Shown: positions 22,981 through 41,050 of the stretch, in pieces
How positions within the stretch are numbered: the stretch's first letter is position 1
Layout: each line of letters begins with the position of its first letter
Source: a virus
Length of the DNA stretch: 41,055 nt
Strand: one strand, 5' to 3'
IMG/VR virus record: IMGVR_UViG_3300020122_000054
Location: 1-41,055 of that record
Position numbers and translations under genes: made by a program
Notes under the pieces: model-generated
The model's database searches: none
What the model saw: only the letters and a program-made list of their open reading frames with translations
Told to the model about the DNA's origin: nothing

Positions 22981-23173
22981 CACTTGCTATTGGCTAGGCC
23001 AGCCAATCAATACTATGACATGTGAACAGTTGCAAGATGCTCTGATTGAGTGTAAGCTTGCTTTGATGCTTAAAAATAATGAAACGATTAAATTACGTCA
23101 TCAATTGGAGATTAAAAATGAGATTGATTATCCTCGGTACAATATTTATATTGACTGGCCTTCTCCCCATTAA
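22970..23173 (+). CDS. Hypothetical protein, 67 residues
   Basis: ATG 22970 follows CAGGGAGAAAAG. MIDDTCYWLGQPINTMTCEQ, LQDALIECKLALMLKNNET: helical, with three cysteines. No family recognised. The end overlaps the start of the secreted protein by 56 bases. Confidence 0.58.
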   Translation: MIDDTCYWLGQPINTMTCEQLQDALIECKLALMLKNNETIKLRHQLEIKNEIDYPRYNIYIDWPSPH

Positions 23174-23504
23174 TGCTAAATGGATTAATGTCGCAGGTGA
23201 ATGGGATGCTTATCGGCTCAATGATAGTCAACGAGCATGGTTTAAAGACGTTCGCGCTCAGTCGGGTGTGCCTTGCTGTGATATTGCGGATGGGCATCCT
23301 ACGGCAATGGAGCATCGTGAGGATGGTTATTACATTCCTGATCCACGCGATTCTGCACAACCTTGGCTTAAAGTACCGAATGAAGCCTTGACAAGGCAGA
23401 AAATTAATCCCATAGGTGTAGCAACGGTGTGGTACGTGATTTATCCACCTGGAACACAGCCGGAAGTTTTTATTCGTTGCTTTGTACCTGAAAGTGAAGG
23501 TTAG
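23118..23504 (+). CDS. Secreted conserved protein (alphaproteobacterial type)
   Basis: 128 residues from ATG 23118 (GGAG upstream). A Sec signal peptide (MRLIILGTIFILTGLLPINA) is followed by DAYRLNDSQRAWFKDVR, VPCCDIADGHPTAMEHREDG, WLKVPNEALTRQKINPIGVA and a C-terminal IRCFVPE. This CCD-x-ADGH family is common in genomes and phages of Hyphomicrobiales; its function is unknown. The Cys pattern suits the periplasm. It hints at the host group. Confidence 0.72.
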   Translation: MRLIILGTIFILTGLLPINAKWINVAGEWDAYRLNDSQRAWFKDVRAQSGVPCCDIADGHPTAMEHREDGYYIPDPRDSAQPWLKVPNEALTRQKINPIGVATVWYVIYPPGTQPEVFIRCFVPESEG

Positions 23505-25224: not shown

Positions 25225-25310
25225 GCGCTCTTGGCGGAATAGGTAGACGCAACAGACTTAAAATCTGTTTTCGAATAGAAGTACCAGTTCGATTCTGGTA
25301 GAGCGCACCA
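25225..25310 (+). tRNA. tRNA-Leu (anticodon UAA)
   Basis: 86 bases with encoded CCA. Acceptor arms GCGCTCT and AGAGCGC pair; the anticodon stem CAGACT ... AATCTG carries TAA; a long variable arm fits the class II leucine type; the T arm is CCAGTTCGATTCTGG. It reads UUA codons, common in this AT-rich genome. Confidence 0.92.
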
Positions 25311-25335: not shown

Positions 25336-25554
25336 ATGTATCATCACAAATTGAAATCAAGTAGTTCAATTGAGCATATTGACTATCATCCTGGTAAGGA
25401 TGTATTGGAAATTAAATTTACATCAGGTTTGACTTATCATTATCCTGGTTGTCCGATTGAGCATTATCATGCTTTGAAAGATTGTGATAGTGCTGGCAAG
25501 TATTTTGCTCAGAATATTCGTAATAGTTATAAGGGATATAAGCTATTTAAGTAG
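25336..25554 (+). CDS. KTSC domain protein
   Basis: 72 residues from ATG 25336, nine bases after GGAG; ATG 25318 has no site. SSSSIEHIDYHPGKDVLEIK, FTSGLTYHYPGCPIEHYHAL, SAGKYFAQNIRNSYKGYKL match the KTSC domain, first named for the C-terminus of some lysyl-tRNA synthetases and found alone in phages. Molecular function unknown. Set between two tRNA genes; the TAG stop shares its last base with the tRNA-Thr start. Confidence 0.85.
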   Translation: MYHHKLKSSSSIEHIDYHPGKDVLEIKFTSGLTYHYPGCPIEHYHALKDCDSAGKYFAQNIRNSYKGYKLFK

Positions 25555-25629
25555 CTGGTCTAGCTCATTAGGTAGAGCAACTGATTTGTAATCAGTAGGT
25601 GGCAAGTTCGAGTCTTGCGACCAGCACCA
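25554..25629 (+). tRNA. tRNA-Thr (anticodon UGU)
   Basis: 76 bases with encoded CCA. Acceptor arms GCTGGTC and GACCAGC; anticodon stem CTGATT/AATCAG with TGT; D arm AGCTCATTAGGTAGAGC; T arm TTCGAGTC. It reads ACA. Confidence 0.92.
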
Positions 25630-25649
25630 ATTCATGTTATTTGTGGGCA

Positions 25650-26111
25650 ATGTGGAAGCCTTCTGATCGATTTTTTGAAGTTGAAGCACCACGTTCAAAT
25701 AACGATTGGAGCACAAGCTTTGACGTTGTGACGTATCGTAAACCTGATACTTGCATTGCTCTTGATCCTCCTGCACAGCAGCCTAGTGCATCCGCTCAAC
25801 CACTTCTTGACAAAGAGGCGTTTGCAGCTAGGCTGCTGGCGATTGCAGACGAAGCAATCGAGCGCAACGGGCAACGTCATTTCGTTCATGAAGCCAAGGA
25901 CAGGCACAATTTCCTAAAACTTTATGCCGAAACAATGGGCTATATCGGCCAAAAAGCTTTAATTGATGCATCAACTAACTTCACGAACAATGAAATGAAG
26001 ATAGTCTTAGTTAAGCCTGATAAAAAAGGTGAAACTGAGACTATCAAGCCTGTTGTGGAACACGAAGAAGAAATTACAAACATAACTCCTTTAAGAATTA
26101 AAGCAGTTTAA
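25650..26111 (+). CDS. Possible small terminase subunit, weak call
   Basis: 153 residues from ATG 25650 (a start at 25599 would be inside the tRNA). DKEAFAARLLAIADEAIERN, DRHNFLKLYAETMGYIGQKA, then EMKIVLVKPDKK. The KLYAExMGxIG segment followed by a short C-terminal strand is seen in phage proteins near packaging or tail genes, sometimes called small terminase. No helix-turn-helix is visible and the large terminase is 10 kb away, so the role is uncertain. Confidence 0.4.
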   Translation: MWKPSDRFFEVEAPRSNNDWSTSFDVVTYRKPDTCIALDPPAQQPSASAQPLLDKEAFAARLLAIADEAIERNGQRHFVHEAKDRHNFLKLYAETMGYIGQKALIDASTNFTNNEMKIVLVKPDKKGETETIKPVVEHEEEITNITPLRIKAV

Positions 26112-26125
26112 GATTGGAGAAAATT

Positions 26126-27583
26126 ATGGGTTCTTTTAGTCGTTATAAGGTTCGAAATCTATTTATTGGCTGTGCTGCACTTGTGAGTACAGTTGGTATT
26201 GCTGTTTCGGCTGGACTGTTTTGGGGTTATCCGATTGTCGGGCAGGGTACTTATTGCATCAGTTACCAGAATCCGACAGTTGTTAATGGTGTTGTGACTT
26301 CGCAGGGTACTTGTACATCTACTGCACCTGCTGGTCCGACTACATTGACTGGTAACGAATTGGTGGTTGCTGATACGCAGCTTCCTGGTGGTCAGAATCC
26401 ACAGACTGTGTTAATTCCAACTGCTGTAATGTTTTCTCATGGGCAGGGATCGGAGCGTAATGCTTTGATTGGTGGTGATTTTCAAACCAATCTTTGGCAA
26501 CGTGGTACTTCCTTCGCTTCGGCAACTCCGACTACAGCAGCTTATACAGCGGATCGTTGGGCTAGCTATTCCAGCGGTAATACAGTTACCATCAATCGAC
26601 AGACTGGTTCTACTGATATTTCGCCGACACTTGGCGTAAATGCGGTAATGCGCGTTGTTCGGCCTTCTGGTACTAATACAACGTCTATTTGTGTTGGGCA
26701 GATTCTTCCGACTGCTGAATCGGCTAGATTTGTGGGCAATGAGGCCATTTTTAGCTGGTATGGATTTGCAAACACTGGTTATTTGCAAACAAATCAGACA
26801 ATTATTGCTCGCATTTATGCCTTTACTTCGGCTGATAGTGCTACTCCAAACACTAATACCGATGCAATGTTTAAGGAAACATTGACTAATCAGACTATTG
26901 TTAATGGTCAGGTTGGAACAGCGGTAACTACTGCCAGTTTAACTGCGCCTGCTGTCATTCCTCTTACGAATGCAATGGCGCGTTATTCGGTGGCTGGTCA
27001 GGTGCCGCTCACAATTGGTGGAACGGCTGTAACTGGTGTTGGCGTTACGCTTTGCACTGGTGCTTATCCGGCTTCGACGGGTGTTGCTGGTGATTGGTTC
27101 GAATTTGGCAATGCTCAACTTGAATCGTCTGCGCCTCCTGTTGTACAGAATGGCGTTACAATTTCTGCTGGTAATACGTCTCCTGGTAGCTTTGCGCGAC
27201 GCACACCTTGGTTGGAAGGCGTGCTTGAACAGACATATTCTTATGTCATTACTGAAGGTGCTGCATCGGTGGGAACACCGCTGATGGGTACTTACGATAC
27301 TACTACAACTTGCGAATTGACTGCACCTGTTCCGCATATGCGTATTGCTCCGACTCTTGCATTCGGTGGTACTACGCTTAGTGCAAGCACTTGGGCAATC
27401 ATCGCTAACAGTGCTACGCCAATTGCTCTTGCTACCACTTACTTAGTGCAAAGCACATTGGGAGCTAATACTGTTAATAGCATTAATATCACTTCGACAA
27501 CTGCGGCAAAGACTGCTGGATTTGCTTGTAAGTTAGTCGGTGCTGGTGGTGGTGCTACCATCGTTGCATCTTCGGAACCATAA
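26126..27583 (+). CDS. Exported tail/adhesin-like protein with shared N-terminal module
   Basis: 485 residues from ATG 26126 (GGAG upstream). A hydrophobic N-terminus (NLFIGCAALVSTVGIAVSA) looks like a signal peptide. A module follows (PAGPTTLTGNELVVADTQLP, GGQNPQTVLI) that recurs in the 1279-residue protein at 32667. Then a carbohydrate-binding-like region opens with ALIGGDFQTNLWQRGTSFAS and TADRWASY, typical of phage fibre proteins. Cysteines suggest an oxidising compartment. Ends before a terminator. Receptor binding is inferred. Confidence 0.68.
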   Translation: MGSFSRYKVRNLFIGCAALVSTVGIAVSAGLFWGYPIVGQGTYCISYQNPTVVNGVVTSQGTCTSTAPAGPTTLTGNELVVADTQLPGGQNPQTVLIPTAVMFSHGQGSERNALIGGDFQTNLWQRGTSFASATPTTAAYTADRWASYSSGNTVTINRQTGSTDISPTLGVNAVMRVVRPSGTNTTSICVGQILPTAESARFVGNEAIFSWYGFANTGYLQTNQTIIARIYAFTSADSATPNTNTDAMFKETLTNQTIVNGQVGTAVTTASLTAPAVIPLTNAMARYSVAGQVPLTIGGTAVTGVGVTLCTGAYPASTGVAGDWFEFGNAQLESSAPPVVQNGVTISAGNTSPGSFARRTPWLEGVLEQTYSYVITEGAASVGTPLMGTYDTTTTCELTAPVPHMRIAPTLAFGGTTLSASTWAIIANSATPIALATTYLVQSTLGANTVNSINITSTTAAKTAGFACKLVGAGGGATIVASSEP

Positions 27584-27595
27584 TAATCCTTAATT

Positions 27596-27615
27596 AGGGG
27601 GCGAAAGCCCCCTTT
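27596..27615 (+). terminator. Rho-independent terminator
   Basis: AGGGGGC (27596-27602), GAAA tetraloop, GCCCCCT (27607-27613), then TTATT. A strong stem directly after the 26126 gene. Confidence 0.78.
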
Positions 27616-27643
27616 ATTAAGAAACAAAGAAAGGATTATTATC

Positions 27644-28069
27644 ATGGCATTGGTTCTTCCCATTCCCTTTCCAATCAGGTGGTTTAGCCAGATTAATGGG
27701 AATACACTTAATCAATTATTTGGTGCTCCGCAGTTTTCTGCTGAGAATGGTATTACAGCAACAGCTGGTGGTACAAAGGCTGCTGCTCGATTGCTTAAAG
27801 CAACGGTAAATCAAATCTCTGTTTGCGCGAGTGCGTCTGATAGCGTTAAATTACCAGCAAATCCACAACCTGGAAATATGGTGTTTATTGCTAATGATGG
27901 TGCTCAATCGACTCAGATTTTTGGTTCTAACTCTGATACGATCGATGCGGTCGCTACGGCAACAGGTGTTCCCTTAGCTGCTGCAAGTAGATCGTTTTTT
28001 CTTTGTCATAGCGTGTCATCTGCTGGTGTGGCGGCTTGGGTTTCACAAGCTGGCGCTAAGTCGAGTTAA
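27644..28069 (+). CDS. Structural-type protein, 141 residues
   Basis: AAAGGA upstream. No signal peptide, unlike its neighbours. LLKATVNQISVCASASDSVK, LPANPQPGNMVFIANDGAQS, TQIFGSNSDTIDAVATATG: a beta-rich protein resembling small phage virion proteins with a repeated ‘LPxxPxPG..V.N.G’ unit (decoration or tail proteins). Specific role unknown. Confidence 0.62.
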   Translation: MALVLPIPFPIRWFSQINGNTLNQLFGAPQFSAENGITATAGGTKAAARLLKATVNQISVCASASDSVKLPANPQPGNMVFIANDGAQSTQIFGSNSDTIDAVATATGVPLAAASRSFFLCHSVSSAGVAAWVSQAGAKSS

Positions 28070-28073
28070 CGTT

Positions 28074-28454
28074 ATGAAAAAGCTTTTAGCTTTATTAGCT
28101 TTACTAGGCGCGATTTTCGCGCCTAGTTTTGCATCTGCACAAAATCCTGTAATTACAAAACCATATGCTGTTACTACTTCTAATGCTAGTTCTACAATTG
28201 CATCGACAAATGTATTTCAATCAATTTGGTCAGCGGATACTACGGTAACTGGACGAACATCATGCACTGTTCAAAATAACGGAACACATACAATGTATGT
28301 GTTTTTTGGTCCAATTGCAAGTGCTACTACTGCTAAGTCTGTTCAATTATCTGCTGGTCAATCTGTTTATTGCAGCGTTAATGGAATGGTTCTTAAAGAT
28401 CAAGTTTCTATCACTGGAACAATCGGTGACGCATTTTATGCAGGTCTGCAATGA
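28074..28454 (+). CDS. Exported small protein, 126 residues
   Basis: ATG 28074; upstream in-frame starts lie in the preceding gene. Signal peptide MKKLLALLALLGAIFAPSF, ASA-Q cut. The mature part is beta-rich (SIWSADTTVTGRTSCTVQNN, TMYVFFGPIASATTAKSVQL, GQSVYCSVNG) with a likely disulfide, resembling small phage fibre/decoration folds. The stop overlaps the next ATG (ATGA). Confidence 0.66.
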   Translation: MKKLLALLALLGAIFAPSFASAQNPVITKPYAVTTSNASSTIASTNVFQSIWSADTTVTGRTSCTVQNNGTHTMYVFFGPIASATTAKSVQLSAGQSVYCSVNGMVLKDQVSITGTIGDAFYAGLQ

Positions 28455-30832
28455 AAAAATTATTTTTTATTTTCTTTTTATTATTTAATCAATCCATTTT
28501 AGCTCAGACAATTTCAAATACAGGTAGTGGTGGCGGTGGTGTTCCTGCAAGTGCGGCTCAAATTAATCTTGCAAATTATTTAACATTAGCACAGCTTGCA
28601 GCAGCGCAAGCTGGAGTGAATACACAAGATTTGACGACACCGATTACGGCTTGGATTGCAGCATGTCCTTCAACTGGTTGTCAGTATGTTGTTCCTCCCG
28701 GATATTTTTATACGTCAACTTGTAATTTTACCATTCCTAATGCATTTTCGATGTTAGGTTCGGGAACGCGAGCTTTGGATGGGACTCAGCAGGTATCTGT
28801 CATTGCGTGCGGATCGACTTCAGTACCGCTATTCACGACCACTGCAAAAGTCGGGTTGATGAAAGACTTTTCGATGATTCAGGTTGGCGGCACGGCCGCT
28901 GCTGGATCATCTGCTGTTGTTATTGATTTAGGTTATGCCGCGAACCTTATCAACTTTAATAATTTGATGGTGGACGGCTTCTACGACACATTTGATATTA
29001 AACAGGGGGAGGCATGGCACCTTATTGAGAGTCAAATTCAAAATTGCGTGCATTACTGCATTAGAGTTCGAAATACAGCCAACGCTGACACCGGCGATTG
29101 GTCCATCACAGATAACACATTCTTTCCTGCAAATTCAGCACAAACGGTAATTCGTTGGGAGTCAAGCGGCGGGGGGCACATTACTCATAATAAGGCAACC
29201 TCCAATGGAGGAGTTGCTATGCTATCCTGTATAGAGATAGAAACAACACCAGGGGCGTCGGTACAGATTATCATCGAGGGAAATAAGTGCGAGTTTTTTG
29301 ATGGTCCAGCGGTAGCTATTTATAGCGGATGGCGCCTTGTTAATATTGTCGGAAACACTTTGAATTCTCATGATGGAAATGGTATTGCGACCTTTACAGC
29401 AGCAATTTCAGGAAGCACACTGACGGCCAGCGGGTCGGTTACTGGTACGATCAGGCGAGGGATGGTTGTTACTGGCACTGGCATTCCTAAAGGAACATAT
29501 ATTACGAGTGCTGGTGCCGGTGGTGGAGTAGGAGCTTATCCATTAAACATTTCCCTGCAAAACAGTCCTAGTGGCATTTCTGCTACTGGATCGTCTCCTG
29601 TGATCGTTTGTGGTAACTGTGTTTCCTTGGCTGCTGTTGGTAATACCATATCTGGTCCAAGTGCTACCGTTCCTGCAATTCTTCTTGATACTACGACTAG
29701 CAGTCAGATAGGAGTTAATTCGTTATCAAATATCAGCGATCCTTTGGTTTTGACTGGAAATACCAGTGTAAAATATAACGGAATTGATGCGTTTTCTTTA
29801 GCTCATCAACCTGATGCGACGAAGCTTGCGGCAGGATCGACCAGCTATGTTACTGATGCGGTGACTCCGGTGATGGGGCAGCCGTTCACCGGAGGCGGCA
29901 AGCTCGGGGTTCAGATTTACAGTGACGGTGCCCGATGGCTTGCAGGAGCTACCATTTTAGCGTCGAACTATATCGGCCCTGGTGATGTCAAGGCAGGCGC
30001 TTGGGGTTGGTGGGGTTTGCGAGCCTATAGCGCTGCTAAGGCCGGAACCAAGGCAGCAAATATCTGTAATACGGTTGCCGGGGATGGCAGTTGTGTTGAT
30101 ATCAACACTCTGGCAAATGGGCAACTCGATATGGTTGCCGTCGCTGCGATTCCCTGTACTGGGAATGCCGATTGCAACATCAAAACTTTGTATGATCAAA
30201 CTGCGGCTTTAAATTGTACCGGATCGTGCGATTTAACTCAGGCTACGATTGCCCAGCGCCCAAAGCTGATTTTCAATATCAACACGGGTTTAGGAAGCAA
30301 TACATGCAACAATGTTGTTACGTCTATTGGACCGTTACCTTGTGCATATAGTCTTCAGGCTAATAATAACGTTCTAGCTTCAGCAGGCAATGTGGGAGCA
30401 TTGGCGCAGCCATTCAGTGTGTATGGAGTTGGGGCTGCGCAATTTAATTTTGCCACGTACCACACGATAATAACTGGTGGGAATGGCGGGGTATGGCTTG
30501 GTAATACAGCGAACAATGCCGATTGTGTAGTGACGGCGGATCATTTGGTTCCTGCTGTAAGCGCTCAGTTTCACAATGTGATTTGCGTATATAATGGCAC
30601 CAGTCCTAATTCATTTGGGGTTGTGGATGGGGCGACTACAGCTTTTACGTCGGCGGGCAACTTTAACACCGCAACTAAGCTATTGGCATTTTCTGATGCG
30701 ACTGCTGGCAACACTGACATTTTCAAGGGACCTGTGCTAGAGTTTGGTGTATGGGGATCGGCATTAAGTGCTAGCGATGCGACCAACCTAAACAATAACG
30801 TTCAAGCCTACTACGGGAATTTCGGAAGGTGA
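28451..30832 (+). CDS. Exported beta-helix plus LamG-like tailspike-type protein
   Basis: 793 residues. Signal peptide MKKLFFIFFLLFNQSILA-Q. Residues about 60-440 look like a right-handed parallel beta-helix (pectate-lyase type; repeated short strands, SMLGSGTR, NNLMVDGFYD, ITDNTFFPAN, IEGNKCEF). From about 480 a concanavalin/arabinofuranosidase-like unit follows: WWGLRAYSAAKAGTKAANIC, then KTLYDQTAALN and the end VLEFGVWGSALSASDAT. Such spikes bind or cut surface polysaccharide. Cysteine pairs suit a periplasmic fold. The 3' half is GC-richer than the flanks. Confidence 0.75.
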   Translation: MKKLFFIFFLLFNQSILAQTISNTGSGGGGVPASAAQINLANYLTLAQLAAAQAGVNTQDLTTPITAWIAACPSTGCQYVVPPGYFYTSTCNFTIPNAFSMLGSGTRALDGTQQVSVIACGSTSVPLFTTTAKVGLMKDFSMIQVGGTAAAGSSAVVIDLGYAANLINFNNLMVDGFYDTFDIKQGEAWHLIESQIQNCVHYCIRVRNTANADTGDWSITDNTFFPANSAQTVIRWESSGGGHITHNKATSNGGVAMLSCIEIETTPGASVQIIIEGNKCEFFDGPAVAIYSGWRLVNIVGNTLNSHDGNGIATFTAAISGSTLTASGSVTGTIRRGMVVTGTGIPKGTYITSAGAGGGVGAYPLNISLQNSPSGISATGSSPVIVCGNCVSLAAVGNTISGPSATVPAILLDTTTSSQIGVNSLSNISDPLVLTGNTSVKYNGIDAFSLAHQPDATKLAAGSTSYVTDAVTPVMGQPFTGGGKLGVQIYSDGARWLAGATILASNYIGPGDVKAGAWGWWGLRAYSAAKAGTKAANICNTVAGDGSCVDINTLANGQLDMVAVAAIPCTGNADCNIKTLYDQTAALNCTGSCDLTQATIAQRPKLIFNINTGLGSNTCNNVVTSIGPLPCAYSLQANNNVLASAGNVGALAQPFSVYGVGAAQFNFATYHTIITGGNGGVWLGNTANNADCVVTADHLVPAVSAQFHNVICVYNGTSPNSFGVVDGATTAFTSAGNFNTATKLLAFSDATAGNTDIFKGPVLEFGVWGSALSASDATNLNNNVQAYYGNFGR

Positions 30833-30839
30833 TTGACCA

Positions 30840-31574
30840 ATGAGACGCTTACTCGCGCTTCTGTTGTTTATCCCTTCGCTTGCTTATGCGCAGGGTAGCC
30901 TTGTCACCCCTAGCATTCGCAGCATCACTGTTCAGAAGTACGTCACCAGCGCAAATTCGACCTACGTCCCAAACGCTAATCTTCTATATGCTATTGTCGA
31001 GTGCGTAGGACAAGGCGGGGGCGGTGGTGGGGTTGGCGGTACCACTGCCGATATTCAGTCCGGTGGTGGCGGGGGGTCGGGCTCTTACTCGCGGGTGTAT
31101 CTCACGGCGACAGCGATCGGTGCGTCACAGACTGTAACAAATACCGTGAATGCAAACGGCGGAACAGCCGGTAATAATGCAGGAACAGGTGGTGCTGATA
31201 GCTCATTTGGCTCGCTTTGTGTGGGTAAAGGCGGTTCGGGCGGTGGCGGTGCCGGTAATGGGGCGAGCGGGACTGCGGGCGCTGGTGGCGTTGCCGGTAC
31301 CGGGGACATTGCAGTAGCGGGTGCTCCTGGTACTCGTGGACAGGGATCGACCATCACGACTGTTGTGCTACCCTCTGGGGCGGGCGGGAATGGCCCGTGG
31401 GGCGGTGGTGCAGCAGGCGTCGAAGCCGCAGGCAGTGCTGTACAGGCCGGTGCGGCAGGTGTCGCGTGCGGTGGCGGTGGTTCTGGAGGACAGAGTAACA
31501 ATACAGCTTCGACTACTACGGGAGGTCAAGGTGGTCCTGGCTGTGTGATCGTAACGGAGTTCAATAGCAAATGA
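30840..31574 (+). CDS. Exported glycine-rich adhesin-type protein
   Basis: 244 residues. Signal peptide MRRLLALLLFIPSLAYA-Q. SITVQKYVTSANSTYVPNAN, LLYAIVECVGQGG starts a glycine-rich tail-tip domain with long Gly/Ala runs (about 60-235), a type linked to polyglycine helix stacks in phage adhesins. It ends VIVTEFNSK, and the same ending is found in the next gene. High GC. Probably a receptor-binding tip or a secreted surface protein. Confidence 0.72.
   Translation: MRRLLALLLFIPSLAYAQGSLVTPSIRSITVQKYVTSANSTYVPNANLLYAIVECVGQGGGGGGVGGTTADIQSGGGGGSGSYSRVYLTATAIGASQTVTNTVNANGGTAGNNAGTGGADSSFGSLCVGKGGSGGGGAGNGASGTAGAGGVAGTGDIAVAGAPGTRGQGSTITTVVLPSGAGGNGPWGGGAAGVEAAGSAVQAGAAGVACGGGGSGGQSNNTASTTTGGQGGPGCVIVTEFNSK
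31551..31574 (+). repeat. Direct repeat, copy 1 (gene end TEFNSK-stop)
   Basis: 24 bases encoding the end of the glycine-rich protein and its ATGA junction. Matches 31724-31747 at 22 of 24 bases, in the same reading context. The two copies flank the 58-residue membrane gene. Confidence 0.7.
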
Positions 31575-31747
31575 ACACTCTCATGGATTGGTTTATGAGC
31601 GAAACAACCGGGGCCATTGCGTTAGCGACGTTTATGATCTGCTTATGGGTAGGTGTTTTCCTGACACCGATCATGCTTGTTGTCGGAACATACCAACTTG
31701 CGAGGCAGACCTATAGAGCGGTCGTGACGGAGTTTAATAGCAAATGA
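31571..31747 (+). CDS. Membrane protein, 58 residues
   Basis: ATG 31571 overlaps the glycine-rich gene stop; TGA 31745-31747 overlaps the next start. MNTLMDWFMSETTGAIALAT, FMICLWVGVFLTPIMLVVG gives one or two membrane spans. It ends VVTEFNSK, like the preceding protein, so the 3' ends were duplicated or exchanged. Function unknown; it may be an inserted module. Confidence 0.62.
   Translation: MNTLMDWFMSETTGAIALATFMICLWVGVFLTPIMLVVGTYQLARQTYRAVVTEFNSK
31724..31747 (+). repeat. Direct repeat, copy 2
   Basis: Second copy of the 24-base gene-end sequence at 31551-31574 (differences at two bases). Both copies form a TEFNSK-stop ending followed by an ATGA start. Confidence 0.7.
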
Positions 31748-32658
31748 TGCGATTCCTACCCATCATCGGCTTATTGATCGCTGGTAGCGCAAATGCCCAG
31801 CCACCTACGCAAGCCGCTTTGGCTGGCTATGATCGGCTTGTTTTTAACGATGTCGGTAATATTGATCTCGCCAATACGCAGCAGCCTGGGTTTTCCTGGT
31901 ATCTCGCCAACTGGTTCGGCGCGCCTCCGGGCGATGCTGTGAGCGTTCACGTCGGCCCCGGCGTATTGACCCTCGGCGGAAGTGGCACCAAGGCGACATT
32001 ACAGAGCGCCTTCGCCAGCGGGGCGGGTTACGTCGGCAGCGTGTTTGGTGGCGGCGGTTACTTTGAGATCGACATGGCGATTGGCGCGCCCATTGGCGCT
32101 AACACGCGATACCCGGCTTTTTTCCTTGATGCGATTGAGGCTATTACGAACACAGATCAGTGGCCGGGGCAAGCGGCAGGTTATGTCCATTTTGTCGAAA
32201 TCGACGTGATGGAGTTCTACCGGACTGACGTTAGCAGTAATACGACGAATTATCTTGCTGGGCTTCATGATTGGAGCGGTGGGGCCTCAACCAATGGATT
32301 TCCCGTTAGTCCGCTCTACAACATCCAGAATTCCGGCAATTATTTCGCTATTCCGTCGCAGCCCGTCAATTGGCAGGCGCGTCATCGATATGGAATGAAT
32401 TGGAAGCTTCAGCTTGGCAACATTCCTGGTTCGTTTTCGATGTACTTTGACGACGTTCTGATGTCCACAACTTATTACTTAGGTCCGGTTAGCAATCCGC
32501 CGCTATCTGGACAAGACACCGGGATTTTCACGCCAAGCACCCCTGCGCAAGCTACGCAGACATATGCCATTGCTGATGGCCATCATTACGCGATGCGCAT
32601 CCAGACTGACCAAGTGTGGCCGATTGCGGTTTACGGTGTTAAAGTTTGGCAACATTGA
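31744..32658 (+). CDS. Secreted GH16-like glycanase
   Basis: 304 residues. Signal peptide MMRFLPIIGLLIAGSANA-Q. The catalytic motif E152-I-D154-V-M-E157 (FVEIDVMEFY) is the family 16 E-x-D-x-x-E signature. Other family features are YFEIDMAIGA (entry strand), TRYPAFFLDAIE (WPAFWL-like) and the late PGSFSMYFDDVLMSTT. GH16 enzymes cut beta-1,3/1,4 glucans, galactans and, in rhizobia, succinoglycan. Here it probably degrades host exopolysaccharide, either secreted or on the virion. GC-rich: 43 of 60 bases at 31921-31980 are G or C. Confidence 0.78.
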   Translation: MMRFLPIIGLLIAGSANAQPPTQAALAGYDRLVFNDVGNIDLANTQQPGFSWYLANWFGAPPGDAVSVHVGPGVLTLGGSGTKATLQSAFASGAGYVGSVFGGGGYFEIDMAIGAPIGANTRYPAFFLDAIEAITNTDQWPGQAAGYVHFVEIDVMEFYRTDVSSNTTNYLAGLHDWSGGASTNGFPVSPLYNIQNSGNYFAIPSQPVNWQARHRYGMNWKLQLGNIPGSFSMYFDDVLMSTTYYLGPVSNPPLSGQDTGIFTPSTPAQATQTYAIADGHHYAMRIQTDQVWPIAVYGVKVWQH

Positions 32659-32666
32659 GGATTTCA

Positions 32667-35600
32667 ATGATTTTTCGTATGTTATTATTTATATTATTTA
32701 TCTTACCAGCTTCAGCACAAGTATATCCGAATTTTCCAATTGTTGGAAGCGGTCCCTATAGTTGTGGGCAGAATAATAGTGTTTCGGATTGCACTGTTCC
32801 TGCCGGTCCTCCTAGTTTAACTGGTAATGAAACAATTCTTGTAGATACTAATTTGCCTAATGGTGATCAACCTCAAACTGCATTAACAACAATTGATACA
32901 TTAGCAACATTTCTTAGTTTCGGTGCTCCTATTACAAATGGAGTAACAGCTACATCCAGTTTTGTCAATAATCAATGTTTAGGTTCTTTTGCTAATAGAG
33001 TTATTGGAATCAATTGTAATTCTCTAACGATTGGTACTACTACTGTTGCCGGTGGTATTAGTTTTAATTGCTTAATTGTTATTAGTGGTGTTTTAAGTCA
33101 AAATCCTTGTGCTGCTGGTGGTACAGTTAGTGAAGTTGATACAGGTACGGGGTTAACTGGTGGTCCTATTACAATGAATGGGACTATTGCTTTAGCTAAT
33201 ACTTCTGTTACACCCGGCAGTTATACTAATAGTAATATAACGGTTGATGCGCAAGGTCGAATTACAGCAGCAAGTAATAGCAACACTTGTCCGGTAACTG
33301 CTACTAGTAGTGTATTTGGTTGTGTCAAGCCTGATAATTCGACTATCACTATTTCAGGTGGTGTTATTACAGCAGTTGGAGGCGGCGGGGGAAGTAATTC
33401 TGATAATTTAACAGTTGCTAATTCTGCTGCATTAGCAGCAGCTACTATTGCAAGTTCTGTTGGATATGTTTATGCGGAAAATGTTGCTAATGCATGTCCG
33501 TTAACTTATAGCAAAGGTACATCCTCACCAACAGGTGTATTTGGCGAAGTTCTAAATGTGGCTGCTGGTATTTATTGGGAACCTGTTTATTCGCTATCGC
33601 CCGTTCATATTTGCCAATTTGGAGCATTAACGGGTGCTAGCGCTACGACTAATAGAACAGCAATACAGGCGGCGATTGATTATGCCGCAACATATGGTTC
33701 TGGTACACGTTCAATATATTGCGATGCTGGTGGTTATAGCATTGATGTTCCACTTTTCCTTGATCCTCCTTCTAATTTGCGAGGAATTGGGACATATTCT
33801 GCTTATAATCCTGCTACGACTTACGCGATTAACAACATTGTATTGTTTGACGGCATTCCCTGGATTAGCCTTCAAAATGCCAATACGGGAAATACTCCTG
33901 CACTTGGAAGTCAGTTTGTCGCTACCAGTGCATTTTGGAAACCTACGACTGCAACACCGACAACAGGTGCTTTTGCATATTCATTTTATGGGGACGAAGG
34001 GCTTGGTTCTCAAGAAGGTAGTCAAGGTTGCGTGATTACTGCTGCATTTGTTGGCCAAACTTGTTCGTTTTGGAGCGGCACTGGAAACGGGATGGAAGTT
34101 CAGTCCATTCAGTTAATCGGGTCATATGGTGGTGATGGTCGTTTAGTCGGAATGGGTGTTACAAATTATCCTGCCTATTTATATCGCGGTGGTCTGTATC
34201 CAGGTTATTATGGATTCTGTATCGCTGGTGGAGGACCGGGGGCAAACAGAACGCTATTCAATAAGGTTGAAGCGGATAGTTTTTATGTAGGTATTTCGAT
34301 TGGACCTAATTTCAACGCTCTTGGCGCTGAGAACAAGATTGTTGATTTTAATAGTGTATTCAACTATATTGGTATTCAAGCTGCTGAAAGTCAAGTTGAC
34401 ATTAATACAATTTCGCGTCCATCTATTTATTACAGCACTAAGGCGGTTGTGTTTGCTACTGGACCGGGAGTATCGATTCCAGATGGCGGCAATATGTCCG
34501 TACATAGCAGTGGCTATGGAATTTTTCCGATTTCAAGTACATCGGCTCTAACTGCTACGGCTTATGGAGGAAATTGGTTTCAATATAGCTTTTCTACTAC
34601 GTTAAATTTAGCAAGTGCTATTCCGACTAATCAACGTATTTTTATTGATACCTGTGGAACGAATATAGCCGATTGTATTTTTAATTCATGGATTGTAAAG
34701 ACAAAACATTTTGGTTTGGTTCCATTAGAAGTCACAGCATATAATTCTAGTACAGGTGTTATTACACTGCGAACAACTTCGCAGTGGAGCACTCATTATT
34801 GGCAGATTTTAACCAATGCTTCAACATCAAGTGATTTGCAAGCAGAAATTCAAGCTGCGACTGAAGTATATGCAGTTGAGCGAGTAACGACAGTCGATGC
34901 TAATGGTAGTTATGTTGCTTCTATTCATGAGGAAAATGATCTTGCTTGTACAACAGAAGCGAATTTACATAATGGATTTGTCGGCGGCTTAGGTCATACG
35001 TGGGTTGATATTAGACAGAATTACGATCCTTCGATGTCTCAATATGCTCCAATTCCGTTTGGAATTGGGTCTGAGACTGATGCTACCATAGCGCTGTTTT
35101 ATTGTCAGCAATCTTTTCCTTTTATTTCCCTAGCTGGGTCTAACTTATCGTGGGCACAGGGTGAGTTTGCATCTGCTAGATCGGATTCCATTATTGTTGA
35201 TTTTTCTGGGGCTACCAGCAGAGCTATTTTTACAAATAATCATGCATTGCCCCCAAATCCGACCACAAGAATTGATCCAGCCTTTGGTTATTTTAATCAG
35301 AATGGGTATATCAGTGGGGGTGGAATTTCGCAATATACAGCTGGATTTGGTGCGGGCGAATGGTATCCTAGTCCTTGGGCACCAACATCGTTTCAGCCAA
35401 GCCTTACCCTTGGCGGTGGGATGAACTCAATATTTCAAAGTGGTATTGCTGAAGTTCCATACATAGGTTATCGACCTGCCCCGCAATCTACCCCGCGCAT
35501 TCCAACATCAATGTTGAATAATTTAACGCCACAAGGGCCAGTGACGGTTACATATACGAATGCTTCACCGGGTGTTGTGACGTGGGGCGGCGGTTCTCCA

Positions 35601-36506
35601 ACAGCGCATAATTTATCTGTTGGTGCTCCCGTTGCAATGACATGCACAGGAGGCGGATGTTCTGTTAATGCAGCATTTGTTGGTTGTACCGCGGCTAGTC
35701 CTTGCTATGTGCAGAGTGTGCCAACAAGTTCGACATTTACTTTAAGTCTGACTCTTGGCGGTGCAGCAATTAATACAAGTGGTACAGGTGTGGGTACGCA
35801 ACAAGGGTCCGCGGCCACAAGGCGACAACTTGGAGCGGATTCGGCTGCTAATGGAATGACTAATTATAGCATTCTTGATTGGAATGCACAGATTGGAAAA
35901 TTCTCACAAAGCGCGCACTACTTCGATAGCTGGGGACAACCGCTAAATACCAATGTTATCCCCACAATGCATTGGACTACAAAGGGGCAAAGCTTTGCTG
36001 TGCTCGCTGATGCCGGAACGCTTGGATGGGTTTATCCAGGTCTCGGTATTACACTTAACACCGATACGACGGTGCAGTACGAAGTAACTGGTGTATTCCC
36101 ACATGTTCCGCTTGATCCTCAATCTGCAACAATTACATTTAGCGCTGGTACTACTGTTAATTGGACTGGTGCAGTTGCAGCAGGTATCGCCAATGGTATG
36201 ACGGTGTTTTTTACATCGTCAGCTACTTTACCGACAGGAATTAGTGCAAATACATCTTATTATGTGGCTGGTGTTGCTACTAATAGTTTTACTTTGACTG
36301 ATATCAATGGAACAGCAGTAACATTTACCGGGGCAGGAACTGGAACAATTACTGGTACTGCGGAGCATCCAGGGTATTTCACTGTTATCAATGCGGCGCA
36401 AGATGGTTGCCCATGCCAGATATCTGGGACTAAAACTACAGTTTACAATGGCACGTCAATTGGACAGGGAGCGTTTAGTTGGAAAACATTGACGTATGGC
36501 CCTTAA
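32667..36506 (+). CDS. Exported giant tailspike-type protein (beta-helix)
   Basis: 1279 residues from ATG 32667 (GAGG upstream). Signal peptide MIFRMLLFILFILPASA-Q. Residues about 20-85 repeat the module of the 26126 protein (PAGPPSLTGNETILVDTNLP, NGDQPQT). A coiled, low-complexity stretch leads to ICQFGALTGASATTNRTAIQ, AAIDYAATYGSGTRSIYCDA, the start of a pectate-lyase-like beta-helix typical of tailspikes. The last third has two similar phage beta modules (near VTYTNASPGVVTWGGG and ITFSAGTTVNWTGAVAAG, each ending in a TFTL strand). Likely polysaccharide-binding or cutting spike; the signal peptide is unusual. Confidence 0.75.
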   Translation: MIFRMLLFILFILPASAQVYPNFPIVGSGPYSCGQNNSVSDCTVPAGPPSLTGNETILVDTNLPNGDQPQTALTTIDTLATFLSFGAPITNGVTATSSFVNNQCLGSFANRVIGINCNSLTIGTTTVAGGISFNCLIVISGVLSQNPCAAGGTVSEVDTGTGLTGGPITMNGTIALANTSVTPGSYTNSNITVDAQGRITAASNSNTCPVTATSSVFGCVKPDNSTITISGGVITAVGGGGGSNSDNLTVANSAALAAATIASSVGYVYAENVANACPLTYSKGTSSPTGVFGEVLNVAAGIYWEPVYSLSPVHICQFGALTGASATTNRTAIQAAIDYAATYGSGTRSIYCDAGGYSIDVPLFLDPPSNLRGIGTYSAYNPATTYAINNIVLFDGIPWISLQNANTGNTPALGSQFVATSAFWKPTTATPTTGAFAYSFYGDEGLGSQEGSQGCVITAAFVGQTCSFWSGTGNGMEVQSIQLIGSYGGDGRLVGMGVTNYPAYLYRGGLYPGYYGFCIAGGGPGANRTLFNKVEADSFYVGISIGPNFNALGAENKIVDFNSVFNYIGIQAAESQVDINTISRPSIYYSTKAVVFATGPGVSIPDGGNMSVHSSGYGIFPISSTSALTATAYGGNWFQYSFSTTLNLASAIPTNQRIFIDTCGTNIADCIFNSWIVKTKHFGLVPLEVTAYNSSTGVITLRTTSQWSTHYWQILTNASTSSDLQAEIQAATEVYAVERVTTVDANGSYVASIHEENDLACTTEANLHNGFVGGLGHTWVDIRQNYDPSMSQYAPIPFGIGSETDATIALFYCQQSFPFISLAGSNLSWAQGEFASARSDSIIVDFSGATSRAIFTNNHALPPNPTTRIDPAFGYFNQNGYISGGGISQYTAGFGAGEWYPSPWAPTSFQPSLTLGGGMNSIFQSGIAEVPYIGYRPAPQSTPRIPTSMLNNLTPQGPVTVTYTNASPGVVTWGGGSPTAHNLSVGAPVAMTCTGGGCSVNAAFVGCTAASPCYVQSVPTSSTFTLSLTLGGAAINTSGTGVGTQQGSAATRRQLGADSAANGMTNYSILDWNAQIGKFSQSAHYFDSWGQPLNTNVIPTMHWTTKGQSFAVLADAGTLGWVYPGLGITLNTDTTVQYEVTGVFPHVPLDPQSATITFSAGTTVNWTGAVAAGIANGMTVFFTSSATLPTGISANTSYYVAGVATNSFTLTDINGTAVTFTGAGTGTITGTAEHPGYFTVINAAQDGCPCQISGTKTTVYNGTSIGQGAFSWKTLTYGP

Positions 36507-37862
36507 ATGTTAGAAATAGAATTTCCCGAAAAGTTACTATTCTTACTCAATACTCCGGCTCGCTACAAAGTATTATACGGAGGACGCGGAGCGGGTAAAA
36601 CTGAGAACATAGCTAGAGCACTCATTATTCTTGCTTCACAAAAGCGATTGCGTATTGCTTGCTTTCGTGAATTACAAACTTCGATTGCTGAAAGCGTACA
36701 TGAAACAATTAAGAATCAAATTAATGATATGGGAATGTTTGAAGAATTTAATATTCTGGATAAGACGATTACAAGCAAGCGTACAGGTTCAGAATTTATT
36801 TTTAAGGGTATTCGATACAATATTAATTCAATTAAATCATTAGCGAGAATTGATATTGCATGGATTGAAGAGGCAGTTAATGTTAGTAAAGGATCATGGG
36901 AGAAACTCGGTCCAACTATTCGTGGACGGCATGAAAATGACCCAAATGGAATGGGCGGACCTTTTAGAAAAGGCCCGGAAATATGGATATCCTTCAATCC
37001 TGAATTGGATACAGATGAAACATATAAACGATTCGTTTTGCAGCGAGATAAGTACGCCCCTGACTATAGAGAAGGTGAACGATACGCCATCGTCGAAAAG
37101 TTAAATTGGACAGATAATAAATGGTTTCCACCTGATCTTAAATTAGAAATGGAATTGGCTAAAGAGAAAACACCGGACGAATGGTTGAATGTGTGGGAAG
37201 GTCATACAAAGCAAACCATTAATGGTGCTATTTATGCTGAGGAAATTAAAAAAGTTTTACTTGACGGACGCAGAGGCAAAGTATCTTACGATAGTGGTCG
37301 CCCTGTACATACTTTTTGGGATTTAGGCCATCACGATAATACTGCAATATGGTTTATTCAAAGGGTAGGGGTTGAATATAATATCATCAATTATTTTCAG
37401 GATAATTTAAAAAAGATACCTTATTATTTAGAGCATTTGCAAAGTTTGGGATATGTGTACGGAACGCATCATTTACCGCATGATGGCGAAAACGAGACGC
37501 TTGCTGGTAGGTCTGTTGCCAAACAGCTTCGCGATGTATATCCTAAACAGGTAAAAATTGTGCCGCGTGTATCTAAAAAAGTCATGGGTATTCGAGCAGG
37601 AAGACTTGTTTTTGATCTTTGTAATTTTGACGAAGAAAATACAGCAGATGGTTGGCAATGTTTGTGCAGATATCAATACGAAGTTGATGAAGATGGCAAG
37701 TGGAGTCGTGAGCCTGCCCACAATGATTATTCGCATGGTGCAGATGCCTTTCAAACCTTTGCATTATCATTGAAGTCTGAGACTGAACAAAAGAAGCCTA
37801 AAGTTGTATATTCGAGTACGCATTTTAAACCAAGTTCTAATACAGGTTGGATGAATAGTTAA
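36507..37862 (+). CDS. Large terminase subunit (PBSX/P22-like)
   Basis: 451 residues. ATPase: Walker A YGGRGAGKTEN (24-34) and Walker B IDIAWIEEAV with the catalytic Glu. Middle motif IWISFNPELDTDETYKRF is the coupling motif of PBSX-type terminases. The RNase H-like nuclease has HTFWDLGHHDNTAIWF (first Asp) and late PAHNDYSHGADAFQTFALS. It packages DNA into the prohead. It starts just after the spike gene stop. Confidence 0.93.
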   Translation: MLEIEFPEKLLFLLNTPARYKVLYGGRGAGKTENIARALIILASQKRLRIACFRELQTSIAESVHETIKNQINDMGMFEEFNILDKTITSKRTGSEFIFKGIRYNINSIKSLARIDIAWIEEAVNVSKGSWEKLGPTIRGRHENDPNGMGGPFRKGPEIWISFNPELDTDETYKRFVLQRDKYAPDYREGERYAIVEKLNWTDNKWFPPDLKLEMELAKEKTPDEWLNVWEGHTKQTINGAIYAEEIKKVLLDGRRGKVSYDSGRPVHTFWDLGHHDNTAIWFIQRVGVEYNIINYFQDNLKKIPYYLEHLQSLGYVYGTHHLPHDGENETLAGRSVAKQLRDVYPKQVKIVPRVSKKVMGIRAGRLVFDLCNFDEENTADGWQCLCRYQYEVDEDGKWSREPAHNDYSHGADAFQTFALSLKSETEQKKPKVVYSSTHFKPSSNTGWMNS

Positions 37863-38021: not shown

Positions 38022-40409
38022 ATGGAAAATGATACTGACGATCCTGATGAAAAACTAATTCGGGAAGCTAAAGAACGATTTATGCGATGCGAGGAATGGG
38101 AATCAATTGCTCGCATTCGTTTTGATTATGATTACAAGTTTGCTAATGGTGATGTTCATAATAAATATCAATGGGATTCTGATCTTGTCTATAATCGTGA
38201 ATTGCAAGATAGACCATGTTTGACAATCAATAAAACACGACAGCATAATCTTTTGATTGTTAATGATGCAAAGCAAAATAAGCCGGGTGTTCGCATTCGT
38301 CCGGTTGGCGATGATGCTACCTTTGAAGGTGCGCAAATATTTCAGGAAATTATCTATCATATCGAATATATTTCCAATGCTGAACAAGTTTATGATTATG
38401 CAACTCAGTTTCAAGTAGAAGCGGGCTGGGGATATTGGCGAGTTGCTGTTGATTATATTGATAGCAAGACATTTGATCAAGAAATATACATTCGCCGCAT
38501 TAAAGACCCTAAATCAGTTTATCTTGATTGCGATATTAATGAGATTGATGGCTCAGACGCTCGATATGGATTTATTTTTGAAGATGTTCCAAAAGAAATT
38601 TTTAAAAAGAAATATCCTAAATATGCTGATCAAATTGGACATGCAGCATTAGGTAATACCACACCAGATATGTGGATTACGCAGAATCATGTTCGCGTAG
38701 CCGAATATTATTACAAAGAGGAAAAAGAGGATAAGTTAGTTTCATTTGTTATTCCAGAAGATCATACACCAGTGCAAGGATTATTAAGCGAATTACTTGA
38801 TGAACAAAAAGAAGTCTTTAAAGAAATTAGAAAGCGCGAAGCAAATTTGCCTGCAAATTTACGCACCTATCAAGAGCGAAAGGTTCTAACTGATAATATT
38901 GATTGGTGTAAGATCGCTGGCGATAAAATTGTAGACCGTGGTTCTTGGTTAGGTAAATATATTCCGATTGTTCGTTTGATCGGTAGTGAAACAATTATTG
39001 ATGGTATATTAGATCGCAAGGGCCACACGCGATGGTTAATCAATGCACAGCAAATTTACAATTGGAATACTTCAGCTAATCAAGAATTTGGAGCATTGCA
39101 AACCAAATCGCCTTGGATTGCTTCGGTGGAAGCAATTGAAGGATTTGAGGAATATTATAAAACAGCCAATACAAAAAATCACAGCTTCATGCCGCATCGT
39201 GCATTTGATGATGATGGCAATGAATTACCTGCACCTTCGCGTCCGCAGCCGCCGCAGCCTTCACCTGCTTATGTCAAGCAGATGGAAATTAGTCAAAATG
39301 AAATGATGATGGTGTCTGGTCAATATCAGGCACAAACGGGAGAGAATGAAAATGCTAAAAGTGGAGTTGCAATTAATGCAAGGCAGCGCCAAGGTGATAG
39401 AAGCACTTACCACTTTATCGATAATCAGGCAATCGCAATTAGGTTCACTGGAAAAATTATCCTTGACCTCATCCCGAAAATCTATGATACGCAAAGAGTT
39501 AAACGCATTGAGGCGCGCGATGGACGAATACTTAATGTAACAATCGATCCTGACGCGGAGGAAGGTGTAAAAAATCAAAGTGATCCTAACAATATTCAAA
39601 TGGATAAGAACAGACAAGTTGAAGAAATCTTATTTAATCCGAATGTTGGATATTATGATGTTCAGGCTGATACTGGACCTAGTTTTGCGACAAGGCGTCA
39701 AGAGGCATTTAATGCATTAACTCAGATTGCGGCACAGAATCCTGAATTTATGCATATTGCTGGTGATATCCTTTGGAAGGTTGCGGACTTCCCTGAAGCA
39801 CAGGTTCTTGCTGATCGTTGGCGTAAGATCATTCCGCCGAATGTGACGGGCGATGCACCTGATCCAGCAACTGAACAAGCCATGCACGCTGCTGCTGATC
39901 AAATTCAGCAACAGCTTACTGTAATTGCAAAACAGGCAAAAGAACTTGCTGACAAAGACAAGGAATTGACAATTAAAGCGCAAGACTTGAATCTGCGACT
40001 TAAAGAAGCAATGGCGCGCGAAGCACGCGAAGATTATAAAGCTGAAACTGATCGATTAACTGCATTGGGCAATTATGGTAAGGGTGACAATCCTGATAAA
40101 CGAATGAAGCCGGTGGTCGATCAATTGGTACAGGGGATGCTTGCTGCTGGCGAGCCTGACGAGAGTGAGGAAAAAGCGGAGGCACCTTTAGAGGGTGATA
40201 GCATTCCTGGCGTTCCAGGGTCACGTAAAGCGCCTGATGGGGCACATTACGTCAAACGCGGGAATCAATACTATCGCGTTGAGGCAAATGAGGATATGGG
40301 GTTCCATCCTGCCCACATTGGAGCTAGGCTCGCGCCTGATGGCCATCATTATATTAAAGATGCGCGCCCTGGACGTGAGGGTAAATTTATGCGTGTAATT
40401 CATGGCTAA
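38022..40409 (+). CDS. Portal protein, P22 type
   Basis: 795 residues, close to the length of P22-family portals. Recognisable segments are DRPCLTINKTRQHNLLIVND, QNKPGVRIRPVGDD, WGYWRVAVDYIDSKTFDQEI, KDPKSVYLDCDINEIDGSDA, and the long helical barrel from about 630. The C-terminus adds two similar repeats, RKAPDGAHYVKRGNQYYRV and RLAPDGHHYIKDARPGRE, likely a late extension. It forms the dodecameric head vertex. This points to a podovirus-like virion. Confidence 0.92.
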   Translation: MENDTDDPDEKLIREAKERFMRCEEWESIARIRFDYDYKFANGDVHNKYQWDSDLVYNRELQDRPCLTINKTRQHNLLIVNDAKQNKPGVRIRPVGDDATFEGAQIFQEIIYHIEYISNAEQVYDYATQFQVEAGWGYWRVAVDYIDSKTFDQEIYIRRIKDPKSVYLDCDINEIDGSDARYGFIFEDVPKEIFKKKYPKYADQIGHAALGNTTPDMWITQNHVRVAEYYYKEEKEDKLVSFVIPEDHTPVQGLLSELLDEQKEVFKEIRKREANLPANLRTYQERKVLTDNIDWCKIAGDKIVDRGSWLGKYIPIVRLIGSETIIDGILDRKGHTRWLINAQQIYNWNTSANQEFGALQTKSPWIASVEAIEGFEEYYKTANTKNHSFMPHRAFDDDGNELPAPSRPQPPQPSPAYVKQMEISQNEMMMVSGQYQAQTGENENAKSGVAINARQRQGDRSTYHFIDNQAIAIRFTGKIILDLIPKIYDTQRVKRIEARDGRILNVTIDPDAEEGVKNQSDPNNIQMDKNRQVEEILFNPNVGYYDVQADTGPSFATRRQEAFNALTQIAAQNPEFMHIAGDILWKVADFPEAQVLADRWRKIIPPNVTGDAPDPATEQAMHAAADQIQQQLTVIAKQAKELADKDKELTIKAQDLNLRLKEAMAREAREDYKAETDRLTALGNYGKGDNPDKRMKPVVDQLVQGMLAAGEPDESEEKAEAPLEGDSIPGVPGSRKAPDGAHYVKRGNQYYRVEANEDMGFHPAHIGARLAPDGHHYIKDARPGREGKFMRVIHG

Positions 40410-40767
40410 TCTTCCCGCATGGGTTGCACCTATGAAACCTGTACAGAATGCTGCACAGGGATTGCAAAGTCTCGCACAAACATATACACAACCGCATAAT
40501 GCAATGCAGGGTAAACAGAATTGGGATGGTCAGGGAATTAATCCTAATCAACCAATGCAGCATCAGCAACCTATGCAACAGGGTTTACAAGGACTCGAAA
40601 GCCGTTTACCACCTGAATTGATGCAATTCTTGCAACCGTTCTTAGGAATGATGCAAGGTCAAGGTGATACAATGGGTAATATGAAGGGGCTATTAGGATT
40701 TCAGCCTGTAGATCACGATCCTTTCAAACCTAATCAGCCGGGAGGCGGTGGCCTCTATGGCGGTTAG
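40402..40767 (+). CDS. Gln/Met/Pro-rich protein, 121 residues
   Basis: ATG 40402 overlaps the portal stop by eight bases. Low-complexity: LQSLAQTYTQPHNAMQGKQN, PMQHQQPMQQGLQGL, FLQPFLGMMQGQGDTMGN, ending PGGGGLYGG. A disordered protein between portal and head genes; a scaffold-like role is possible but not supported. No family. Confidence 0.58.
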   Translation: MANLPAWVAPMKPVQNAAQGLQSLAQTYTQPHNAMQGKQNWDGQGINPNQPMQHQQPMQQGLQGLESRLPPELMQFLQPFLGMMQGQGDTMGNMKGLLGFQPVDHDPFKPNQPGGGGLYGG

Positions 40768-41050
40768 TAGACGTTCATTATTTGCTGTATTTGCTGCTTT
40801 AGTGGCTTCGCCAACTATTGTTAAAGCTGTATCATTTTTACCAGTACCAATTCAAAAGAAATTTGATTATTTAATTTTAAATGATTTTAATAAAATAGCA
40901 AGATCGTCAATTCTCTTATTCGAAAATTCAAATGCATTTATAAAAATTATCAATGGTCAATATCATAATCAATTTGCAGAATCAAATGTAAAAATAGGGG
41001 AGCGGTTACGAATTAGGCTACCAAAGGATTATAATATAAATGGCGGATAA
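40757..41050 (+). CDS. Small exported protein with Tat-like signal, 97 residues
   Basis: ATG 40757 (GGAGG about a dozen bases upstream; an earlier GTG at 40748 is too close to the site). MAVSRRSLFAVFAALVASPT, then IVKA: twin Arg followed by a hydrophobic stretch and an AxA-like end. The mature part is FDYLILNDFNKIARSSILLF, with NGQYHNQF and a KIGERLRIRLPKDYN strand. No family recognised. Overlaps the preceding gene by 11 bases. Confidence 0.6.
   Translation: MAVSRRSLFAVFAALVASPTIVKAVSFLPVPIQKKFDYLILNDFNKIARSSILLFENSNAFIKIINGQYHNQFAESNVKIGERLRIRLPKDYNINGG

Follow-up and report, generated by a model that had tools for sequence, protein, structure and literature searches.

As far as we know, tailed phages are thought to assemble wholly in the cytoplasm. 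Sec signal peptides (SPs) are present on the coat proteins pIII and pVIII of filamentous phages, whose assembly into virions takes place at the inner membrane as the phage is extruded. Exported lysis proteins of phages, such as SAR endolysins, SP endolysins and spanins, also use the host Sec system and act on the cell wall. In the open-access papers searched, phage SPs were found to be described for lysis proteins only, with no precedent for exported receptor-binding proteins.

P22 tailspikes can be added last, onto finished particles. Heads and tail parts of P22 were joined in vitro to give complete particles (Israel et al. 1967, cited in PMC3741392). Tailspikes and tail fibres of P22-like phages, including those of Pseudomonas phage PAE2 and Rhodoferax phage P26218 and the tail spike of Xanthomonas phage PBR31, begin with methionine at the head-binding domain and carry no SP. 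The locus considered here belongs to a group of tailed dsDNA phages with P22-like heads, in which proteins of the receptor-binding type, encoded in the late structural region, begin with SPs; this applies to nearly all tail-fibre and tailspike-like proteins of the group.

The window and its relatives

The window, i.e., the whole analysed DNA stretch of 41,055 bases, is an IMG/VR record and represents a partial P22-like podovirus. This assignment follows from its portal and Terminase_3-type TerL (Table 1) and from the coat and gp4/gp10-like genes of relatives; these genes and the ejection genes were seen in relatives only, and the window contig stops after the portal. The record has no tail module, so its own tailspike is not on the contig. 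The closest cultured or GenBank phages are genomes labelled as Manatee Spring podovirus or myovirus (TerL identity 42–45%). Long relatives from IMG/VR (G001, 54 kb; G002, 58 kb; G003, 58 kb; G004, 27 kb) share 61–71% TerL identity and have the gene order early genes, TerS, SP block, TerL, portal, scaffold, coat, gp4/gp10-like genes, ejection genes and tailspike.

All genomes of the group are metagenomic and belong to uncultivated P22-like soil phages; their genes were called as mechanical ORFs. A genome scan with TerL found neither prophage nor host, and a scan with the domain of the first block gene gave one match, a locus in an Alphaproteobacteria MAG, too weak for a host call.

The small terminase-like gene keeps the same place in relatives, and its homologue G001:11056 matches phrog_5334 (terminase small subunit). 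As the GTG at 25599 falls within tRNA-Thr, translation of the window gene probably begins at the ATG near 25648. Two tRNA genes, Leu-TAA (25225-25310) and Thr-TGT (25554-25629), are located directly ahead of this gene. ORFs looking like homing endonucleases of GIY-YIG-like or HNH-like types were noticed by eye and by BLAST among relatives; they are dispersed among structural genes (G001:10320, 17423, 28890; G002:18705, 45374; window 8580).

Table 1. Genes of the SP block and its surroundings in the window (named in the text by their start positions)
Gene	Location	Strand	Features	Basis	Signal peptide	Cys in mature protein
Small terminase-like	25599..26111	+	Bounds block; no SP	Relative's match to phrog_5334		
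First block gene	26126..27583	+	SP (29 aa, AVSA before G), N-domain, long C-terminal part	Sequence	MGSFSRYKVRNLFIGCAALVSTVGIAVSA, cut before GLFW	6
SP-free gene	27644..28069	+	141 aa	SP-free homologues at same place in relatives		
Small SP gene	28074..28454	+	SP (ASA before Q), 104-aa jelly-roll domain	Model pLDDT 81, weak jelly-roll matches	MKKLLALLALLGAIFAPSFASA, cut before QNPV	2
SP gene	28451..30832	+	SP (ILA before Q), beta-helix-like part, C-terminal lectin-like region	Beta_helix E 0.004, below cut-off	MKKLFFIFFLLFNQSILA, cut before QTIS	20
SP gene	30840..31574	+	SP (AYA before Q), glycine-rich tail-fibre domain	PF21722 E 6e-6	MRRLLALLLFIPSLAYA, cut before QGSL	4
SP gene	31744..32658	+	SP (ANA before Q), 286-aa protein	No relatives found	MMRFLPIIGLLIAGSANA, cut before QPPT	0
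SP gene	32667..36506	+	SP (ASA before Q), N-domain as in 26126, phage structural motif; 1279 aa		MIFRMLLFILFILPASA, cut before QVYP	24
TerL	36507..37862	+	Bounds block; no SP	PF04466 E 1e-34		
P22-like portal	38022..40409	+	Places the phage	PF16510 E 3e-144		

Signal peptides between the terminase genes

A first-pass annotation had described Sec-type SPs in six genes of a "tail region" (26126-36506), with Gln after the cut in five of them and the SP-free 27644 in between. All six N-termini agree with that description, Gln follows the cut in 28074, 28451, 30840, 31744 and 32667, and 27644 lacks an SP, as do its homologues. The name of the region needs correction: the window ends after the portal, so what was called the "tail region" in fact lies between the small terminase gene (25599) and TerL (36507). 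The N-termini have the positive n-region, uncharged core and small –3/–1 residues of Sec substrates cut by SPase I. The SP of 26126 is the weakest and least typical of the six, having a long n-region and AVSA before G, but the SPs of its homologues are ordinary. Among the six genes, a TM-like stretch after the cut was found in 32667 only. A search for internal translation starts that would yield SP-free isoforms gave none: in-frame starts with a Shine-Dalgarno site are absent from the SP genes directly behind the cut.

For statistics, an SP rule scoring n-region charge, uncharged hydrophobic core and –3/–1 residues was applied with a cut-off score of at least 4.2. In a check with 49 kb of E. 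coli K-12 sequence, none of the cytoplasmic proteins was flagged, while about 9 of 12 exported proteins and three inner-membrane proteins were, one of the latter at 4.2 or more. At this cut-off, the corresponding blocks of relatives gave 50 positives among 76 genes versus 0 of 548 in distant P22-like phages, a set made up of the relatives with 45% identity and of reference P22-like phages, all having no SP block (Fisher p 6e-55; 0/548 means <0.55% at 95% confidence). The 26 block genes under the cut-off include several with obvious SPs that scored low, for example, MKKVLFLILGLLAFFPQSASA followed by Q in L041, and the conserved SP-free gene of the 27644 type.

The SP block occupies the same place in every relative whose TerL is about 54% identical or more and whose contig covers the block, and is absent from the group with 45% TerL identity. 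SP genes lie between TerS and TerL in contigs L003, L006, L009, L012, L036-L038, L041, L047, L052, L108, L111 and L112; some contigs begin inside the block, and there the SP genes are those upstream of TerL. Each phage has 5–8 SP proteins, and the order is partly kept: the first SP gene, an SP-free gene for 130–140 aa, a small SP gene and variable larger SP genes. The block proteins are highly variable yet share pieces (e.g., G001:15263, G002:6202, G003:44541), a mosaicism habitual in receptor-binding proteins.

On a block gene of a few relatives, the Sec signal is replaced by a Tat-like one (L005:406, L010:1739), and Tat-like motifs SRRSLF and SRRFFLG were seen by eye in 40748 and related genes. 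This replacement suggests that export itself is under selection. The uniform ASA-Q style had been ascribed earlier to a shared origin or to selection. Gln at +1 is common across the group (28 of 78 SP proteins versus 4.3% expected) and the proteins are otherwise unrelated, so the style needs no shared gene origin; together with the Tat-like signals, this points to the second possibility, namely, repeated selection for export. The Q-rule of Bacteroidetes, i.e., Gln directly after the SPase I cut (PMC5837995), was considered as the source of the style and dropped: Gln at +1 is enriched but not found in most SP proteins of the group, only about one in three having it, and the sole bacterial genome match is the Alphaproteobacteria MAG.

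The gene 40748 was left out as a seventh SP gene, as its second half matches the N-terminus of P22-type coat and it runs to the contig edge. At 40748-41050, a Tat-like signal (SRRSLFAVFAALVASPTIVKA) is fused to this coat-like fragment, and the stop codon lies 5 bases short of the contig end. Related starts of the Tat-like kind were found at G001:24606, at G002:20290 (between portal and scaffold) and at L109:7268 and 7543.

Several further observations concern the block and its neighbourhood. In several relatives, a multi-TM membrane protein is encoded right after the first SP gene (L106:3204-4310, L052:2984-4075, L036:1651-2721, L108:8525-9598, L110:8590-9621, L111:4214-5329, L112:8518-9648). 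The L106 copy resembles the O-antigen ligase Wzy_C (E 4e-7, just below the cut-off), and a change of receptor by the phage is possible. A first gene with an SP and the N-domain also occurs in freshwater phages from another lineage, with contigs of up to 56 kb (L118:7866-8351, L120:7866-8366, L115:110-595, L119, L122); some of these phages have at least one further SP gene behind it. Outside the block, a small conserved protein that contains a PCC..AD motif and whose N-terminus is SP-like or hydrophobic (window 23079-23504; G001:1594-2007; G002:37128-37553) is possibly lysis-linked or a moron.

Domains and cysteines of the exported candidates

The N-domain of 26126 has the pattern YPIVGxGxY..C..APAGPxxLTGNExxxADTxLPxGxxPQT, and a gene of this type is the first of the block in every relative with a complete block. 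In a model of this family (pLDDT 79), the C-terminal domain resembles T4 gp10, CBA120 TSP4, T4 gp9 and the capsid spike of Pa223 (Z 6.6–9.2). The likeness to the T4 gp10/TSP4 adaptor domain (Z 8–9 over ~90 residues, sequence identity only 12–22%) was modelled on the shorter C-terminal domain of relatives, the C-terminal part of 26126 being longer and different. Unlike gp10 and TSP4, the family carries an SP and a Cys-paired N-domain ahead of this fold. The top viral match of the model is a Klebsiella EPS depolymerase; the matches are mostly virion proteins, with secreted proteases of the StcE/CpaA kind among them too.

The other SP proteins of the window show tail-fibre-like domains at most in 28451, 30840, 31744 and 32667, where the N-domain shared by 32667 is the sole candidate of the attachment type. 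The C-terminal region of 28451 looks LamG/arabinofuranosidase-B-like by eye. The protein 30840 matches phrog_863 and other tail-fibre families, and a stretch of G003 is 67% identical to it. The motif GTGLTGGPIT..SYTNSNITVDAQGRITAASN of 32667 also occurs in annotated phage structural proteins. In 31744, an EIDVME motif is GH16-like by eye, and a PDB sequence search gave no match; judging from the motif, this protein is possibly a new glycanase. Searches of cultured phages by tblastn gave no match for 30840, 31744 and 28451 and short motif matches only for 32667, and for 31744 and 28451, IMG/VR yielded no relatives in scans with narrow patterns. Since the jelly roll is a widespread fold, a match of the 28074 model to the Ena pilus (Z 9.5) was not read as a sign of homology. 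The same block also encodes SP-free proteins whose domains are of a similar kind (27644; G001:13872), so not every fibre-like part is predicted to be exported.

In the relatives, a tailspike encoded past the ejection genes, the same place as in other P22-like phages (G001:37131, G002:31097, G003:8897), consists of an SP, a head-binding domain and a collar domain (PF07484). The SP directly precedes the head-binding domain, whereas most homologues begin with Met there; this includes the cultured phages examined, two of whose proteins are annotated as tailspikes. An attachment domain followed by a receptor-binding domain is thus found in this downstream tailspike and, by fold, in relatives of 26126. 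Viral loci with this head-binding domain have an SP in 22 of 76 cases and none in 54. The 22 comprise one group of 20 and the separate lineages L207, whose C-terminal end is K1-lyase-C-like just below Pfam's cut-off, and L208, in which the SP gene sits among core tail genes. The tree of the domain requires four changes of the SP label with poor branch support, and a single SP origin may account for the main group of 20. SP-free beta-helix or collar proteins were not seen in G001-G003; a conserved SP-free 147-aa protein bears the PHROG label 'short tail fiber'.

Cysteine content also distinguishes the SP proteins: Cys makes up 1.75% of the mature forms, versus 0.86% for proteins without an SP from the same phages and 0.61% for the late genes of SP-free relatives. 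Even Cys numbers prevail over odd ones by 32:7 in SP clusters (p 7e-5) versus 22:23 in SP-free clusters (difference p 0.003) and 31:33 in late genes of SP-free relatives, although shared ancestry weakens these statistics. The cleanest control is the tailspike family, with 14:2 for SP members and 17:20 for SP-free homologues (p 0.006). In the first-gene family, Cys columns 24/39, 25/41, 135/172 and 177/184 are each filled in pairs in exactly the same sequences, and both partners are shifted together in L003 and L111, which is not easily explained by shared ancestry alone. Such even numbers and co-varying pairs are of the disulfide type. The first-pass annotation considered export of virion-type proteins to be unexpected; SPs that are conserved in the group and precede known virion domains, together with Cys patterns of the disulfide type, indicate that, as far as can be judged from sequences, this export looks real.

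Proposed assembly at lysis and other explanations

In our opinion, receptor-binding and tail-accessory proteins of this P22-like podovirus are probably made as Sec precursors, exported, oxidised and joined to virions at lysis. The host would remove the SPs and pass the proteins through the inner membrane, on the far side of which they would fold and form intramolecular disulfide bonds. DNA would be packaged in the cytoplasm into heads closed by a gp4/gp10/needle-like stub, and the spikes and fibres would wait as disulfide-bonded trimers in the periplasm or beyond. After holin and lysis opened the inner membrane, the compartments would mix and the fibres and spikes would dock on the stub from outside. 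From the SPs, their conservation, the virion-type domains, the SP-free homologues and the Cys pairing we infer the cleavage in the host, the location reached and the attachment to virions. Loading at lysis appears to be the best fit, because the exported tailspike retains its head-attachment domain and no unexported candidate was seen in the long relatives.

The same proteins might instead act outside the virion as free periplasmic or secreted depolymerases and lectins. By stripping or masking receptors of the dying cell and of cells nearby, they would prevent the trapping of progeny or block superinfection. The SPs and disulfide-type Cys would suit such enzymes, as would the beta-helix, Gly-rich and possibly GH16-like content, and the membrane gene of O-antigen-ligase-like type that several relatives have within the block suggests surface modification. 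We regard this as unlikely, given the head-binding domain kept behind the SP of the syntenic tailspike, the gp10/TSP4-type domain of the first gene and the lack of other receptor-binding candidates in the long relatives. The number and diversity of SP proteins in each phage would agree with a double role, in which one exported pool serves twice, on the host surface until lysis and as a coat of virions afterwards; this we consider rather improbable.

If the hydrophobic N-termini served virion assembly or membrane contact and were kept on the mature proteins, neither the canonical order of charge, hydrophobic core and AxA with Gln at +1, nor the Tat-like signals in related genes, nor Cys pairing confined to SP forms would be expected, and homologues work without the segment, so that this explanation is very doubtful. 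An artefact of host genes or wrong start codons, suggested by the metagenomic origin of the contig and by longest ORFs beginning upstream at TTG or GTG, is hardly credible in view of the repeated occurrence between TerS and TerL in many independent contigs, the Shine-Dalgarno-like sites ahead of several ATGs and the absence of an alternative start with such a site after the cut.

Returning to loading at lysis, the wider proposal, for and against which we see the case as evenly balanced, is that of a lineage of tailed dsDNA phages finishing their virions outside the inner membrane. All its receptor-binding proteins would be exported by Sec, some perhaps by Tat, acquire disulfides in the periplasm and dock only at lysis, and this habit would have arisen more than once in podoviruses. 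SPs on phage structural genes are seldom looked for, which leaves a blind spot. If the proposal is true, it means two-compartment assembly, a route not known for tailed phages. Disulfide-stabilised fibres would then be possible for harsh environments such as soil, sticky or enzymatic spikes could be kept from the cytoplasm, and one exported pool could serve both to change the host surface and to equip the progeny.
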